Part shown: piece after piece, positions 5,825-28,259 of the stretch
How the letters are laid out: each line of letters starts with the position of its first letter
Position numbering within the stretch: the stretch's first letter is position 1
Source: a virus
Strand: one strand, 5' to 3'
Virus record (IMG/VR): IMGVR_UViG_3300013137_000079
Span: 1 to 28,259 of that record
Length of the DNA: 28,259 nt
Position numbers and translations under genes: made by a program
The notes under the pieces: model-generated
The model's input: the letters and a program-made list of their open reading frames with translations, nothing else
Told to the model about the DNA's origin: nothing
Databases searched by the model: none

Positions 5825-7801
5825 TTAAAATCCTCCTAAACCTTTAAAAAAGTTTCCAATTCCCGAGGCAATATCGACTACCTCTTTAGGTCCAACTATT
5901 CCACCTGTTCCAGAGAATAATGTTGAAGCAATATCCGGAGCATTCTTAGCAACTGATTGTCCTGCACTATACGCTGTAATAGGAGTTTTTACTTGTGTTG
6001 ATAGTACTTCTGGAGTTATTACTTCAGTTTTTATTCCTAATAAATCTTTTAAAGTTTCATCTGATACTTCTTTTTGTGTATATAAATTTCTTAATCTAGT
6101 ATAAGCTACATCTACACTTAATTCTTTTTCATAGATAAATTGATCAATATCTTCTCTAACACTTTGAAGAATTTCTTCAGGAGTTGCTGGTATATTTTTT
6201 TTATCAACTGGAGCTTTAAAATATAAAGTTTTACCTCCAACATTTACTGAAGTTAATCCTGCTTGACCTGTATTTACTCCAACAGGTGTGTATCCCTTTA
6301 ATATCATATCTTTATTAAAATCTATAATCTCTTGTTGATCAGATGCATACTTAAGTTTAGTTCCCCATTCACTTTGAGGTGTTAATATTGTTATACCTGC
6401 TTTAGCAAATTCTACAGCAGTTTCTGGATTTATAAATAATTGTTTAAAAGTATCTGCATTTGTTTGTACTCTATCAATCTTTTTCTGCAATGTATCTATT
6501 GTAGTATTAATAAAATCTTGTTCAGCGTCAGTAAGTTTGATAAGTTTATTTCCTGTTTCTACTGACCTTGAATCATAATAATCTTCAAGTGTTTTATAAT
6601 AATCTAATTGTTCTTTGAATGTATTTGTTATAGCAGTAGTAACTATTGAAAGTTGATTTTGTGTCTGTGTCATGTTATTTTCTTGAGCTGAAATACCCAT
6701 TTGAATAGTTCCTGCTTGAGCTGCAATATTTGCTATAGTTTCATTAACTCTAGGATTTCTTATAGCACTTAATCCTGTTGTTGCTTTTTGTGAAGCAATT
6801 AAAGCATTACCTTGTGTAGTAAGTTGCATAAGTTGATCAACAAAAACTTGTTTTTGTTTATATGCTTCATCCATTCTAGTAATTTCCTTCTGGGTTTCAG
6901 ATAGTTTCATTTCCATTTCTCTTGTAGCAATATCACCTTCTTTTTGGATAGCTTCTTGTTGAGAATTACGATAATCATTTAATTCTTGTTGTGTTTGTTG
7001 TTTATCTTCTTGTATACGTTGCAATTGTTCATTTCTTTGATTATCAATAGTTATTTGCATATTTGCAATCTGTTCATTCTGAGATTCTATATATGATTTA
7101 ATATAATCTTCAACAGGTGGTCGTACTGGAGTATCAGTTATATCAGGAACATCTGTTTTTATATCAGTTTTTAAAGGAGCAGGTGGTAATACATTATTCA
7201 TTTTAGCTGCTGTATTTACTCCAACAATACCATCTGCAGTTAAATTGTTTGCTTTTTGATATGCTTTAACTGCTGCATCTGTATTTGCACCGTATATAGA
7301 ATCAGCACCTGTTGATCCTACATCATATCCTTTAGATATTAGAAAATTTTGTAAATTTGCTACTTCATTTCCTTTTGATCCTATTTTTAAATTTGCTGAA
7401 GATACTGGAGTTGAAGGTGTAACTACTGGTGTAGGAGTCTGTGGTTGAGTAGTAGAAGGTTTATTTAATACAACTTGAGTTTTTGGACCTATAATACCAT
7501 CTTGTACTAAACCATTAGCTTTTTGTATTTCTTTAACTTGAGCTGTTGTAAGATTATTTGGATTACTTCCACCTGATACTGTTTTAGCTTTTGAACTACC
7601 ACTTGATGAACCACTAGAAGTTGTAGTTTTAGTTGTACTTACTTTAGGTACAGAAGTAGTTATTTTTCCAGCTGGTTTACTAACTGATGCACCAGATGAA
7701 GATACTGTTTGACCTTTAGAATTTAAAGTTATACTTCCCCCTGCTCCCGAGTAAGTTACTGTTCCATTTGCATTTTTTGTTACACCTTTTGCTGTTGCCA
7801 T
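5825..7801 (-). CDS. Virion protein with two peptidoglycan-binding repeats and a long coiled coil
   Basis: A 658-residue protein. Residues 1-80 are Ser/Thr/Gly-rich and low complexity. Residues about 84-113 (LTTAQVKEIQKANGL then DGIIGPKTQVVLN) and about 137-202 (LKIGSKGNEVANLQNFLISK, then DGIVGVNTAAKMN) match the PG_binding_1 fold. The second copy is complete and the first is short. A Pro-rich linker follows. Residues about 232-450 are Gln/Glu/Lys-rich with heptad-like spacing, consistent with a coiled coil. The C-terminal 200 residues are unassigned. No catalytic cell-wall hydrolase domain is recognisable, so this is more likely a wall-anchoring or penetration component than a complete endolysin. 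The gene is 6 bases upstream of the 1011-residue gene. It has its own candidate extended -10 element immediately before the ATG, which suggests a separate late sub-operon starting here. Confidence 0.8.
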   Translation of the reverse strand: MATAKGVTKNANGTVTYSGAGGSITLNSKGQTVSSSGASVSKPAGKITTSVPKVSTTKTTTSSGSSSGSSKAKTVSGGSNPNNLTTAQVKEIQKANGLVQDGIIGPKTQVVLNKPSTTQPQTPTPVVTPSTPVSSANLKIGSKGNEVANLQNFLISKGYDVGSTGADSIYGANTDAAVKAYQKANNLTADGIVGVNTAAKMNNVLPPAPLKTDIKTDVPDITDTPVRPPVEDYIKSYIESQNEQIANMQITIDNQRNEQLQRIQEDKQQTQQELNDYRNSQQEAIQKEGDIATREMEMKLSETQKEITRMDEAYKQKQVFVDQLMQLTTQGNALIASQKATTGLSAIRNPRVNETIANIAAQAGTIQMGISAQENNMTQTQNQLSIVTTAITNTFKEQLDYYKTLEDYYDSRSVETGNKLIKLTDAEQDFINTTIDTLQKKIDRVQTNADTFKQLFINPETAVEFAKAGITILTPQSEWGTKLKYASDQQEIIDFNKDMILKGYTPVGVNTGQAGLTSVNVGGKTLYFKAPVDKKNIPATPEEILQSVREDIDQFIYEKELSVDVAYTRLRNLYTQKEVSDETLKDLLGIKTEVITPEVLSTQVKTPITAYSAGQSVAKNAPDIASTLFSGTGGIVGPKEVVDIASGIGNFFKGLGGF

Positions 7802-22605: not shown

Positions 22606-22797
22606 TTAAAAAATTAATGAAATAATTATCATAATTAATCCTAATGGAATTTTTGAAATAGAAATAGAACTTCCAAAACCATAACCTCTTATAATAAAAT
22701 CAGGTTGCTGTGCAAATATAGGTAAAGGAATAAAAAGTCCTAATATTGGAGTTATAAAATTAAACTTACCGAACGAGATTGTTTTTATTTTTTCCAT
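22606..22797 (-). CDS. Small hydrophobic membrane peptide, unknown (63 residues)
   Basis: A 63-residue peptide with two hydrophobic segments (FITPILGLFIPLPIF at about 14-28, and IPLGLIMIIISLIF at the C terminus), joined by a short Gly/Ser-rich polar stretch. It could be a membrane protein; a holin is possible, but no holin family is recognised and no endolysin is next to it. It lies between the large terminase and the tiny genes before the portal, an unusual place for lysis. A candidate promoter with a near-perfect -10 ends seven bases before its ATG. Confidence 0.5.
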   Translation of the reverse strand: MEKIKTISFGKFNFITPILGLFIPLPIFAQQPDFIIRGYGFGSSISISKIPLGLIMIIISLIF

Positions 22798-24409: not shown

Positions 24410-24787
24410 TTAAATCATATCCTCTAGTGGGATAACTTCTTCATTAGCAACTTGTAAACGTTGCTGTGCTAAATCCTTTAAGCTAAATTGCACATTTCCG
24501 GATAAATCGATAGATTCCTTAGCTTTTCCAAATGCACGGTCTAGAAGCGAATTTGACGCCTTTAGGACGGTATCATTATCCTTACCACCGGCACGAACAG
24601 GAAGCGAAGCAACCTCTAATTGTTTATTAACTAAATCTACACTATTTCCAATAATACCACGTATTATTTCTTCTCTACGTATTTCAATTTCTTTAGCAAG
24701 TGGTGTTAATTTTGTTTTCTTTTTTAACTGACGTTTAGCTTCTTCAGTCTTTATACGCATTATATGCATTTGTTTAATAGTAGCCAT
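24410..24787 (-). CDS. Terminase small subunit (probable)
   Basis: A 125-residue protein, basic N terminus (IKTEEAKRQLKKKTKLTPLA), a central helix with EIEIRREEIIRGIIGNSV and NKQLEVASLPVRAG, and a segment LKASNSLLDRAFGKAKESID that resembles the conserved stretch of small terminases and their relatives. It sits directly before the large terminase with a one-base gap and is first in the late operon, the standard place. DNA recognition for packaging is therefore inferred. The ATG lies just after a strong promoter-like element. Confidence 0.7.
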   Translation of the reverse strand: MATIKQMHIMRIKTEEAKRQLKKKTKLTPLAKEIEIRREEIIRGIIGNSVDLVNKQLEVASLPVRAGGKDNDTVLKASNSLLDRAFGKAKESIDLSGNVQFSLKDLAQQRLQVANEEVIPLEDMI

Positions 24788-25240: not shown

Positions 25241-25280
25241 AGCTAAAGCAGGCCAAAGCAAGCCAAGGCAGGCCATTACT
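25241..25280. repeat. 10-bp tandem repeats (array 3)
   Basis: Consecutive 10-base units agctaaagca, ggccaaagca, agccaaggca and the start of a fourth (ggcca), pattern RGCYAARGCA. It directly abuts the first GTATAGTAAT-type iteron and is much richer in G+C than its surroundings. Confidence 0.7.
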
Positions 25281-25580
25281 ATACCCTAGATATAGTAATT
25301 TTAAGTATAGCAATAAGTATAGCAATTTTTTTTCAACCTATATTATAAGGATATTTTATATGCATTACTATACCTACTATACTTATTTTTATATATATAA
25401 GTTACTATAGAATAAAGAGTATACACACATAGCACCGTGTAGTATATACTCCATCCAAAGTGTTTGGCACTTTTTCGACAAGGTATAGTAATTTTTAAAA
25501 TATCCTTATATAACAAGCTAAAAACCTCCTACTACACTCTTTTAAGGTATAGTAATTATAGTAAAATAGATATAGTAATT
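25275..25580. repeat. Iteron cluster, consensus GTATAGTAAT, in both orientations
   Basis: Forward copies near 25291-25300, 25305-25314 and 25317-25326 (both with gtatagcaat), 25483-25492, 25547-25556 and 25571-25580; inverted copies at 25275-25284, 25364-25373, and partial ones at 25375-25382 and 25402-25409. Copies at 25275-25283 and 25291-25299 form a 9-bp perfect inverted pair. This density of a 10-base motif is far above chance and is typical of initiator or repressor binding sites. Confidence 0.75.
25344..25510. repeat. 15-bp perfect inverted repeat flanking 137 bp
   Basis: tataaggatatttta (25344-25358) and its exact reverse complement taaaatatccttata (25496-25510) flank a segment containing several iterons, an imperfect hairpin (gagtata 25417-25423 / tatactc 25445-25451) and a short hairpin with a T-run (25457-25475). 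It may allow a large cruciform or loop. Confidence 0.6.
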
Positions 25581-25585
25581 AAAAG

Positions 25586-25594
25586 TTATCCACA
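25586..25594 (+). promoter_or_regulatory. DnaA box (TTATCCACA)
   Basis: A perfect match to the bacterial DnaA consensus TTATNCACA, six bases after the last full iteron copy. It supports host DnaA assisting initiation here. Confidence 0.6.
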
Positions 25595-26963: not shown

Positions 26964-27053
26964 ATGAAAATATTTTTCTTTGTTTTAATAGTTTTGTTTA
27001 TTGCATTTGTTCGTAGTTTAATAGTTAGTAAAGAGCAGGCAAGCAAAAAATAG
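26964..27053 (+). CDS. Tiny single-pass membrane peptide (29 residues)
   Basis: Reads MKIFFFVLIVLFIAFVRSLI and ends SKEQASKK, TAG stop. About 15 consecutive hydrophobic residues followed by a basic tail make it a plausible membrane peptide. Its last eight codons are nearly identical to codons of the primase gene 400 bases downstream (see the repeat entry), so part of it may be a duplicated fragment. The second DnaA box starts on the base after its stop. Tentative. Confidence 0.4.
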   Translation: MKIFFFVLIVLFIAFVRSLIVSKEQASKK

Positions 27054-27062
27054 TTATCCACA
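27054..27062 (+). promoter_or_regulatory. DnaA box (TTATCCACA), second copy
   Basis: A second perfect TTATCCACA, same orientation as the one at 25586, lying ten bases upstream of the candidate primase promoter. It may link host DnaA level to replicase expression or mark a second initiation site. Confidence 0.5.
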
Positions 27063-27071
27063 TATACTTAG

Positions 27072-27101
27072 TTGCTAATAATAATACTTATATGCTATGC
27101 T
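27072..27101 (+). promoter_or_regulatory. Candidate promoter of the primase leader
   Basis: TTGCTA (27072-27077), 18 bases, TATGCT (27096-27101), with TG at the extended -10 position (tgctatgct). The predicted start, about 27108, would place the 5' arm of the leader pseudoknot (27109-27117) at the very 5' end of the transcript. Confidence 0.4.
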
Positions 27102-27108
27102 AGTGCTA

Positions 27109-27188
27109 TGCACGAGAATACAAAAACTTATTCGTATATAACAACCAGTAGAGGAGAGAGCGATCTCGTGCAACCTCTACTGGTTTTT
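27109..27188 (+). terminator. Terminator hairpin with pseudoknot-capable 5' leader, before the primase
   Basis: AACCAGTAGAGG (27143-27154) pairs perfectly with CCTCTACTGGTT (27174-27185), followed by a T-run (27184-27188): an intrinsic terminator. Within its loop GAGA (27156-27159) and TCTC (27164-27167) close a GCGA tetraloop (GNRA type). In addition TGCACGAGA (27109-27117) is the exact complement of TCTCGTGCA (27164-27172) in the loop; order a-b-a'-b' makes an H-type pseudoknot of 9 and 12 pairs. The long helix can form in both states, so pairing a would compete only with the apical hairpin and could alter termination. The start codon of the primase follows five bases after the T-run. Confidence 0.65.
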
Positions 27189-27192
27189 CTAT

Positions 27193-28259
27193 ATGAATGA
27201 AGAAAAAAAACAAAATAATATACTAGAGCAAGCCTTTGCTTATCATATTAATGGTTTTTCAGTAATGCCTGTTAAGAAAGACAAAAGACCTTTTTTGTCC
27301 TCTTGGAAGCAGTATCAAACAACACTAGCAACAGATGATGAGATATTAAATTGGTTTAAAAATTCTAATGTAAATATCGCAATTATAACAGGTAAAATAT
27401 CAAACTTGACCGTAGTAGATATTGATAATAAAGTTAGTGAAGAGCAGACAAGCAAAATGCTAGCCCTATTTCCCGAAACTTACACGGTGCAAACACCTTC
27501 AAAAGGTTATCATTTATATTATCAATATCAAGAAGGACTTACTATTTCAGCAAATGCTTACTCTCAATATCCTAATGTGGATATCCGTGGCGAGAGTGGT
27601 TATGTAGTAGCACCACCATCTAAAACCGAAACTGGTGAATATATTGTATTAAAAAATCTTCCATTTGCTCCATTTCCTATAAATCTATTCCCGCGAGCAA
27701 AACCTAAAAAAACTTTTACAGAAATGACAACAGCGTCAATAGGAAATCGGAATGATACTCTTGCTTCTGTAATTGGTAAATTATTGAAAGCTACAAAAGA
27801 AGAAGAATGGTTTAATGAGGTTTTACCTGCGGTGCAGAAAATTAATTTAACTTATTCTCCACCATTACCTGATCACGAAGTGTTAACTGTATTTAATAGT
27901 ATTGTTAATAAGGAAAAGCAAAATAGGCAGATAGTATTATCCGATGGGCAAAGAATACCTATAATGAAAAATAAAGCTGGTGTTCCATATATGAATATGT
28001 CAAATGTTATAGCTATATTAAAAGCACATCCAGATTTTAGAGATAAGATACGATATAATACCTTTAAGCAAGTATTAGAGATTGATGGAAAGGAGCTACA
28101 AGATGAAGATACATTGCGAGTACAGCATATATTACAGATTAAATTTGGCTTGCATTCTATAACAAAAGATACAGTTTACTCCGCTTTAGTACATTGTGCT
28201 TATGATAATCGCTATGATGAAGCACAAGATTGGCTTAAATCGCTTGTTTGGGATGGTGA
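27193..28259 (+). CDS. Primase-polymerase (AEP) fused to VapE-type domain, C-terminally cut by window edge
   Basis: 355 codons are visible, with the end outside the window. Residues 1-165 are an archaeo-eukaryotic primase (bifunctional primase/polymerase, PF09250-like): N-terminal AFAYHINGFSVMPVKKDKRP, motif I VVDIDNK (Asp76, Asp78), motif II KGYHLYY (His107), motif III VDIRGESGYVVAPPS (Asp130). Residues about 184-240 resemble a PriCT-type C-terminal module (GNRNDTLASVIGKLLK). Residues about 268-355 (NVIAILKAHPDFRDKIRYNT, then EAQDWLKSLVWDG) match the region ahead of VapE-type ATPases, so a helicase domain is expected just past the window. Such fusions prime and unwind phage or plasmid DNA. 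The start ATG directly follows the leader terminator; no Shine-Dalgarno. Confidence 0.9.
   Translation, partial: MNEEKKQNNILEQAFAYHINGFSVMPVKKDKRPFLSSWKQYQTTLATDDEILNWFKNSNVNIAIITGKISNLTVVDIDNKVSEEQTSKMLALFPETYTVQTPSKGYHLYYQYQEGLTISANAYSQYPNVDIRGESGYVVAPPSKTETGEYIVLKNLPFAPFPINLFPRAKPKKTFTEMTTASIGNRNDTLASVIGKLLKATKEEEWFNEVLPAVQKINLTYSPPLPDHEVLTVFNSIVNKEKQNRQIVLSDGQRIPIMKNKAGVPYMNMSNVIAILKAHPDFRDKIRYNTFKQVLEIDGKELQDEDTLRVQHILQIKFGLHSITKDTVYSALVHCAYDNRYDEAQDWLKSLVWDG

Follow-up and report, generated by a model that had tools for sequence, protein, structure and literature searches.

The primase gene at the end of an uncultured phage sequence is preceded by a leader that we read as an attenuator with a built-in start-codon lock. 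A short open reading frame (ORF), predicted to start at the very first base of the RNA, runs through an intrinsic terminator (stem S2), and the loop of that terminator can pair with the bases at the leader start codon (helix S1). We give this reading a probability of about 60%, and the element is better explained in this way than as a riboswitch or a non-coding RNA. The window, i.e. the whole stretch of viral DNA analysed (28,259 nt; IMG/VR record IMGVR_UViG_3300013137_000079), cuts the gene, a primase-VapE/SF3-type helicase fusion, at its end, and full-length versions exist among relatives. Ten other uncultured phages have the same S1/S2 architecture ahead of their primase-helicase genes. The features are collected in Table 1.

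Table 1. Features of the primase leader and its surroundings in the window.
Feature	Position	Strand	Sequence	Basis
DnaA box, 45 nt upstream of leader AUG	27054..27062	+	TTATCCACA	exact consensus
Candidate sigma-70-type promoter	27072..27101	+	TTGCTA-18-TATGCT	read from sequence
Leader ORF, 30 codons; AUG at predicted +1, TGA overlapping primase start	27108..27200	+	MHENTKTYSYITTSRGESDLVQPLLVFLYE	equivalent ORF in all 10 related leaders
S1 5' arm, starting at second base of leader AUG	27109..27117	+	TGCACGAGA	sequence, duplex energy, nascent folding
P1 lower stem, 5' strand; partner is the primase start region	27128..27138	+	TTATTCGTATA	folding; near-identical strand in L003 and L060
S2 terminator stem, 5' strand	27143..27154	+	AACCAGTAGAGG	7/12 pairs changed on both sides in L003/L060
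Apical hairpin, competitor of S1	27156..27167	+	GAGA-GCGA-TCTC	sequence, energy
S1 3' strand (anti-start), within S2 loop	27164..27172	+	TCTCGTGCA	exact reverse complement of S1 5' arm; 3/9 pairs vary, all compensated in L003/L060
S2 terminator stem, 3' strand	27174..27185	+	CCTCTACTGGTT	exact reverse complement of S2 5' strand; covariation
Intrinsic terminator T-run	27184..27188	+		read from sequence
P1 lower stem, 3' strand, primase AUG inside	27190..27200	+		folding
Primase (Prim-Pol + PriCT_1), then start of VapE/SF3 helicase	27193..28257	+		Pfam PF09250 1.3e-27, PF08708 2.8e-6; PHROG primase and helicase

An earlier sequence-only reading of this DNA had described the 9-bp helix S1, the perfect 12-bp terminator stem S2, a T-run with the ATG close behind it (27193) and a GCGA tetraloop hairpin as an alternative. 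All of them are present exactly as described, and the tetraloop hairpin contributes about -3.5 kcal/mol to the S2 hairpin. In the window, S1 alone is worth about -11.5 kcal/mol and S2 with the apical hairpin about -21.5 kcal/mol. The folding energy of the leader lies 5.6 sd below that of its dinucleotide-shuffled versions (z = -5.6), and with S2 held fixed an S1 this good is found in about 0.1% of shuffled 5' regions (p = 0.0012). Over 12 hairpin-bearing leaders (the 11 with this architecture plus the Bacteroidota-like L051) the combined Fisher p for S1 is 1.5e-12, and S1 duplex energies compared with shuffled arms give a combined p of 2.7e-11 (11 leaders), rows that are not fully independent in either test because the window, L003 and L060 are related. 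No Rfam covariance model matched the window at the gathering threshold, and no relevant match was found at E up to 5 in the loci with the leader and their relatives.

Covariation was summarized in the window, L003 and L060, the only leaders that align (n = 3, a small sample). In these three sequences S1 is paired in 100% of cells and 3 of its 9 pairs are changed on both sides, as are 7 of the 12 pairs of S2. The 10 two-sided pair changes overall were reached by 0 of 500 shuffles, and sliding the partner abolishes the signal (three sequences). Compensatory change in both helices had been named as the support to look for, and the three alignable leaders provide it; the leader structure, which recurs in the ten other phages, is under selection. 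The proposal of a cis-acting switch that overlaps a terminator and controls the replicase gene is supported, while its ligand-sensing variant is disfavoured because no loop nucleotides are conserved outside the subgroup of the window, L003 and L060. Among the divergent leaders no conserved loop nucleotides were visible by inspection, and only the AUG and the architecture recur, so that a ligand riboswitch is unlikely. The lower stem P1 is weakly supported, because its 5' strand is nearly identical in the three leaders and the changes are one-sided alone, with zero two-sided pairs.

The architecture set comprises 11 leaders (window, L003, L016, L018, L055, L060, L069, extended as L079, L071, L074, L076 and L078). 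L003 was found by a terminase search (78% protein identity), and its primase leader has the same element with compensatory changes; further uncultured phages were found through primase searches and a helicase-motif scan. The eight leaders that do not align keep both helices despite almost wholly different sequence, and L069, L071 and L078 combine the same leader architecture with a different N-terminal primase module. The pseudoknot element is absent from three related loci (L063, L066 and L077). No nucleotide relatives were found among named phages and no close relatives in bacterial genomes; isolates related through their primase or terminase proteins share less than 60% identity, and the element is absent from the two of their leaders inspected.

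Several candidates were left out of the family. At distant primase loci the upstream gene abuts or the hairpin is missing. L051 and L052 have a terminator and loop-loop complementarity without a leader AUG: at L051 3830-3960 (and in L052), ahead of a distant primase with a Bacteroidota-like promoter, the terminator apical loop TGGCGG is complementary to the upstream hairpin loop CCGCCA (kissing loops). L068 was set apart as a different design in which the loop pairs with a downstream arm; in its helicase-gene leader (minus strand) a 16-bp hairpin begins near the promoter, its loop TAGCGTGCT pairs with downstream AGCACGCTA, and ATGGAT/ATCCAT closes the stem, giving an opposite-handed pseudoknot over a start codon. 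The exact 9-mer pair also occurs elsewhere in viral contigs and was not read as homology, because short inverted pairs occur by chance. A loose scan of other gene starts yielded many chance pseudoknots, and for this reason only stricter combined criteria were used. A blind scan of the collected loci, requiring the hexamer, S1/S2 and a short ORF that adjoins a long one, gave 16 matches among 18,134 ATGs (1.36 Mb counting both strands). Half of them (8 of 16) are primase leaders, including nearly all with the longest stems, and the others, which have stems of 6-8 bp and for the most part long loops, look like chance occurrences within genes.

What the sequence-only reading had missed is that an ATG begins at A27108, the predicted transcription start, and that the ORF it opens spans the entire element. 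Each of the 11 leaders has an ATG at its 5' arm, and the frame of 29-53 codons that follows is uninterrupted in S1, S2 and the T-run, so the ORF spans the terminator in every case. The AUG-to-S2 stem spacing is 35-44 nt (11 of 11), and the ORF stop ends -12 to +11 nt from the A of the primase ATG (11 of 11; a 23-nt range). Openness alone is moderately improbable (Fisher p = 2.4e-5 with the ATG given, and ATGs picked by eye before testing), and the way in which the stops gather around the primase start adds to this improbability. Since a short ORF reaches from the 5' arm to the primase start in 11 of 11 leaders, the earlier suggestion of an RNA with no coding function is not the preferred interpretation. 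No conservation of the leader peptide was seen across the 11 leaders beyond MH...YSY in three of them, and because the peptide is unconserved it is probably the act of translation, rather than the product, that counts.

A promoter TTGCTA - 18 nt - TATGCT is plausible from the sequence; its +1 would be A27108, and the leader AUG follows the -10 at about 6 nt. In most relatives a -10-like hexamer (TATAAT in L003, L018 and L071) stands 6-7 nt upstream of the leader AUG, and with the ATG at this distance the RNA would be leaderless; the spacing is poor in L074 and L076. The window leader is most likely a leaderless mini-cistron. The primase AUG itself has no Shine-Dalgarno sequence and sits within stem P1. 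Elsewhere in the window, Shine-Dalgarno sequences are almost absent from the genes, and TATAAT occurs 7-11 nt ahead of some start codons (5825-7801, 22606-22797 and 24410-24787, all minus strand), a combination that suggests leaderless mRNAs in this phage. Two further observations concern the upstream region: a 26-nt near-duplicate (92%) links 27023-27048, at the 3' end of an upstream ORF of 29 aa, with 27432-27457 inside the primase gene, and in L003 and L016 small ORFs judged by eye to be excisionase/MerR-like HTH proteins lie directly upstream of the primase leader, with a DnaA box overlapping their 3' ends.

In order to follow the leader as it is made, each of the 11 RNAs was folded up to, and without, the S2 3' strand. 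In 10 of 11 the AUG bases U+2 and G+3 are paired to the S2 loop at this stage (P about 0.66-1.0), and L076 is missing the S1 lock on its AUG. When the S2 3' strand is added, S2 dominates in nested models. Pseudoknots lie outside what the folding programs represent, so whether S1 and S2 could coexist was judged from geometry; with linkers of 25, 9 and 1 nt it looks feasible.

The helices, their covariation, the ORF, its spacing and the DnaA box are read directly from sequence; from them we infer the start site, termination, the effects of ribosomes and any part played by DnaA, in the following course of events. RNA polymerase would start at A27108 and produce a leaderless RNA beginning 5'-AUGCACGAGA; 70S ribosomes bind such 5'-terminal AUGs directly (reviewed in PMC9031893). 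A ribosome that engages the 5' AUG while nt 27164-27172 are still inside the polymerase would cover the 5' arm and, trailing the polymerase, would block S2 as a terminator and open P1. Translation of the leader to its end would then allow reinitiation at the overlapping primase start, and termination-reinitiation does occur at overlapping ATGA-type junctions (PMC6728339). If no ribosome arrives early, the loop would pair with the AUG (S1) and S2 would form next, so that transcription would mostly end at the T-run with the primase off, and any read-through RNAs would remain closed at both start codons. Primase-protein output is thus probably tied to ribosomes loading during transcription.

The terminator is the point on which a device acting on translation alone would differ. 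Here the S1/S2/P1 pseudoknot would be inhibitory and opened for the primase by translation of the leader ORF, in the style of repY-repZ or tap-repA, and the terminator look would be incidental. L055 and L076, which retain the helices and the ORF despite weak T-runs, fit such a device, as does P1, which lies beyond the T-run, can pair in the window, L003 and L060 and is usable by read-through RNA only. However, at least 4 T follow directly after a perfect S2 stem in 9 of 11 leaders (L055 and L076 being the two with poor T-runs), and we regard this explanation as unlikely, if the most serious of the alternatives. In repY-repZ and tap-repA systems activation comes from the pseudoknot and inhibition from an antisense RNA, whereas the predicted phage pseudoknot takes in the start codon of the leader and would be inhibitory, an opposite sign suggested by its anatomy. 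In the window, a look-up for an antisense promoter returned a weak minus-strand match at 27246-27217, no more than chance. The likeness is that the leader ORF of IncI-alpha/IncL/M repY-repZ and IncFII tap-repA overlaps or abuts the replication gene, with translational coupling and an RNA pseudoknot (studies cited in PMC10724649); the phage leader ORFs likewise stop at the downstream start.

For the attenuator reading with the start-codon lock, a useful comparison is the Escherichia coli pyrBI leader. Its initiation is led by a Shine-Dalgarno sequence, it depends on UTP-dependent pausing and it is not known to have a start-codon lock, whereas initiation on the phage leader is probably leaderless, with the start codon paired to the loop of the terminator, and no conserved U tract was noticed upstream of S2 in the phage leaders. 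Common to both is an intrinsic terminator in a leader ORF: the pyrBI terminator sits inside its leader gene, and termination is prevented when a ribosome follows close behind (PMC4824070). Terminators are repressed by ribosomes in their vicinity, and those early in a gene often escape ribosomes (PMC4824070); the latter is the main theoretical objection to the attenuator reading.

The terminated RNA of about 80 nt could also act in trans, as a small RNA on nascent leaders in the manner of phage P4 CI or Gifsy-1 IsrK, its free loop pairing with the 5' arms of other molecules. The Gifsy-1 IsrK and phage P4 SeqA-CI RNAs are phage leaders with short terminated and read-through forms, and such short or processed leader RNAs control coupled genes (orf45-anrP in Gifsy-1) or replication genes (in P4, by RNA-driven termination) (PMC4825925). 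Those RNAs act through several complementary segments in lysogens, whereas here there is one intramolecular pairing and no integrase was found. With just one complementarity, and that intramolecular, pairing in cis should win; in the window no second complementary site for the leader was found at the search sensitivity used, where the query matched itself and its own inverted repeat only. Lysogenic immunity is unlikely because no Tyr integrase was found in 16 records and no Ser recombinase in 13, although several of the records are fragments. Action in trans is accordingly quite improbable. The IsrK/P4 CI leaders and the IncI/IncL/M and IncFII replication leaders are the nearest functional parallels, and none of them is shown to be homologous.

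That the element accompanies primase-helicase genes with two kinds of N-terminus would suit autogenous control, in which repression would come from the primase, or some other phage protein, binding to the leader pseudoknot, as with T4 gp32. T4 gene 32 is under protein-binding autoregulation and is not known to have a leader ORF or a terminator. Its likeness is a 5'-end pseudoknot on the mRNA of a replication protein (PMC535899). Yet the same architecture stands before proteins with unrelated N-terminal primase domains, and no unpaired motif is conserved across the 11 leaders, which makes this explanation slightly more improbable still than a trans-acting RNA.

Of 15 related loci, 13 have a DnaA box TTATNCACA, exact or with 1 mismatch, upstream of this gene, usually 41-55 nt ahead of the AUG and just upstream of the -35. 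In the 15 loci, 8 exact boxes were observed upstream of the primase gene and 0.09 are expected. The element might hence be part of a replication origin, with DnaA box, promoter and hairpin acting at the DNA or R-loop level, and iteron-like repeats do adjoin a box in L060, L077 and the window. But the box is also present in L063, L066 and L077, relatives without the pseudoknot, so the features are separable, and the ORF and its stop position need a reason at the mRNA level; we consider this the least probable of the explanations. Since the box occurs without the pseudoknot, it is taken as part of the promoter or origin and not of the RNA switch. Separately, four GGTATAGTAA(TT) copies in both orientations occupy 25276-25594 of the window and end beside a second exact DnaA box (25586-25594), which from its sequence is likely an iteron-type replication origin. 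The same GGTATAGTAA repeat stands ahead of the replication gene of L066, and AAGTCACAT arrays adjoin a DnaA box in L060 and L077.

To our knowledge, control of leaderless initiation by RNA structure has been little explored. More tentatively than the attenuator itself, and at somewhat less than even odds, we suggest that these phages have a mechanism that regulates leaderless initiation as such: the 5'-terminal AUG would be free only during RNA synthesis and covered once the terminator loop emerges, only ribosomes loading in the first 60-odd nt would switch the primase on, and a host DnaA box would accompany the promoter at an almost constant distance. The start-codon-lock model is clear and testable by mutation. 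The architecture also offers a diagnostic signature with which metagenomic phages could be searched for replication genes and for mini-cistrons that lack annotation. If the reading is true, four known principles (DnaA box, leaderless start, start-codon lock and a terminator inside an overlapping leader ORF) would be joined within fewer than 150 nt into a compact circuit that controls the replication commitment of uncultured phages.
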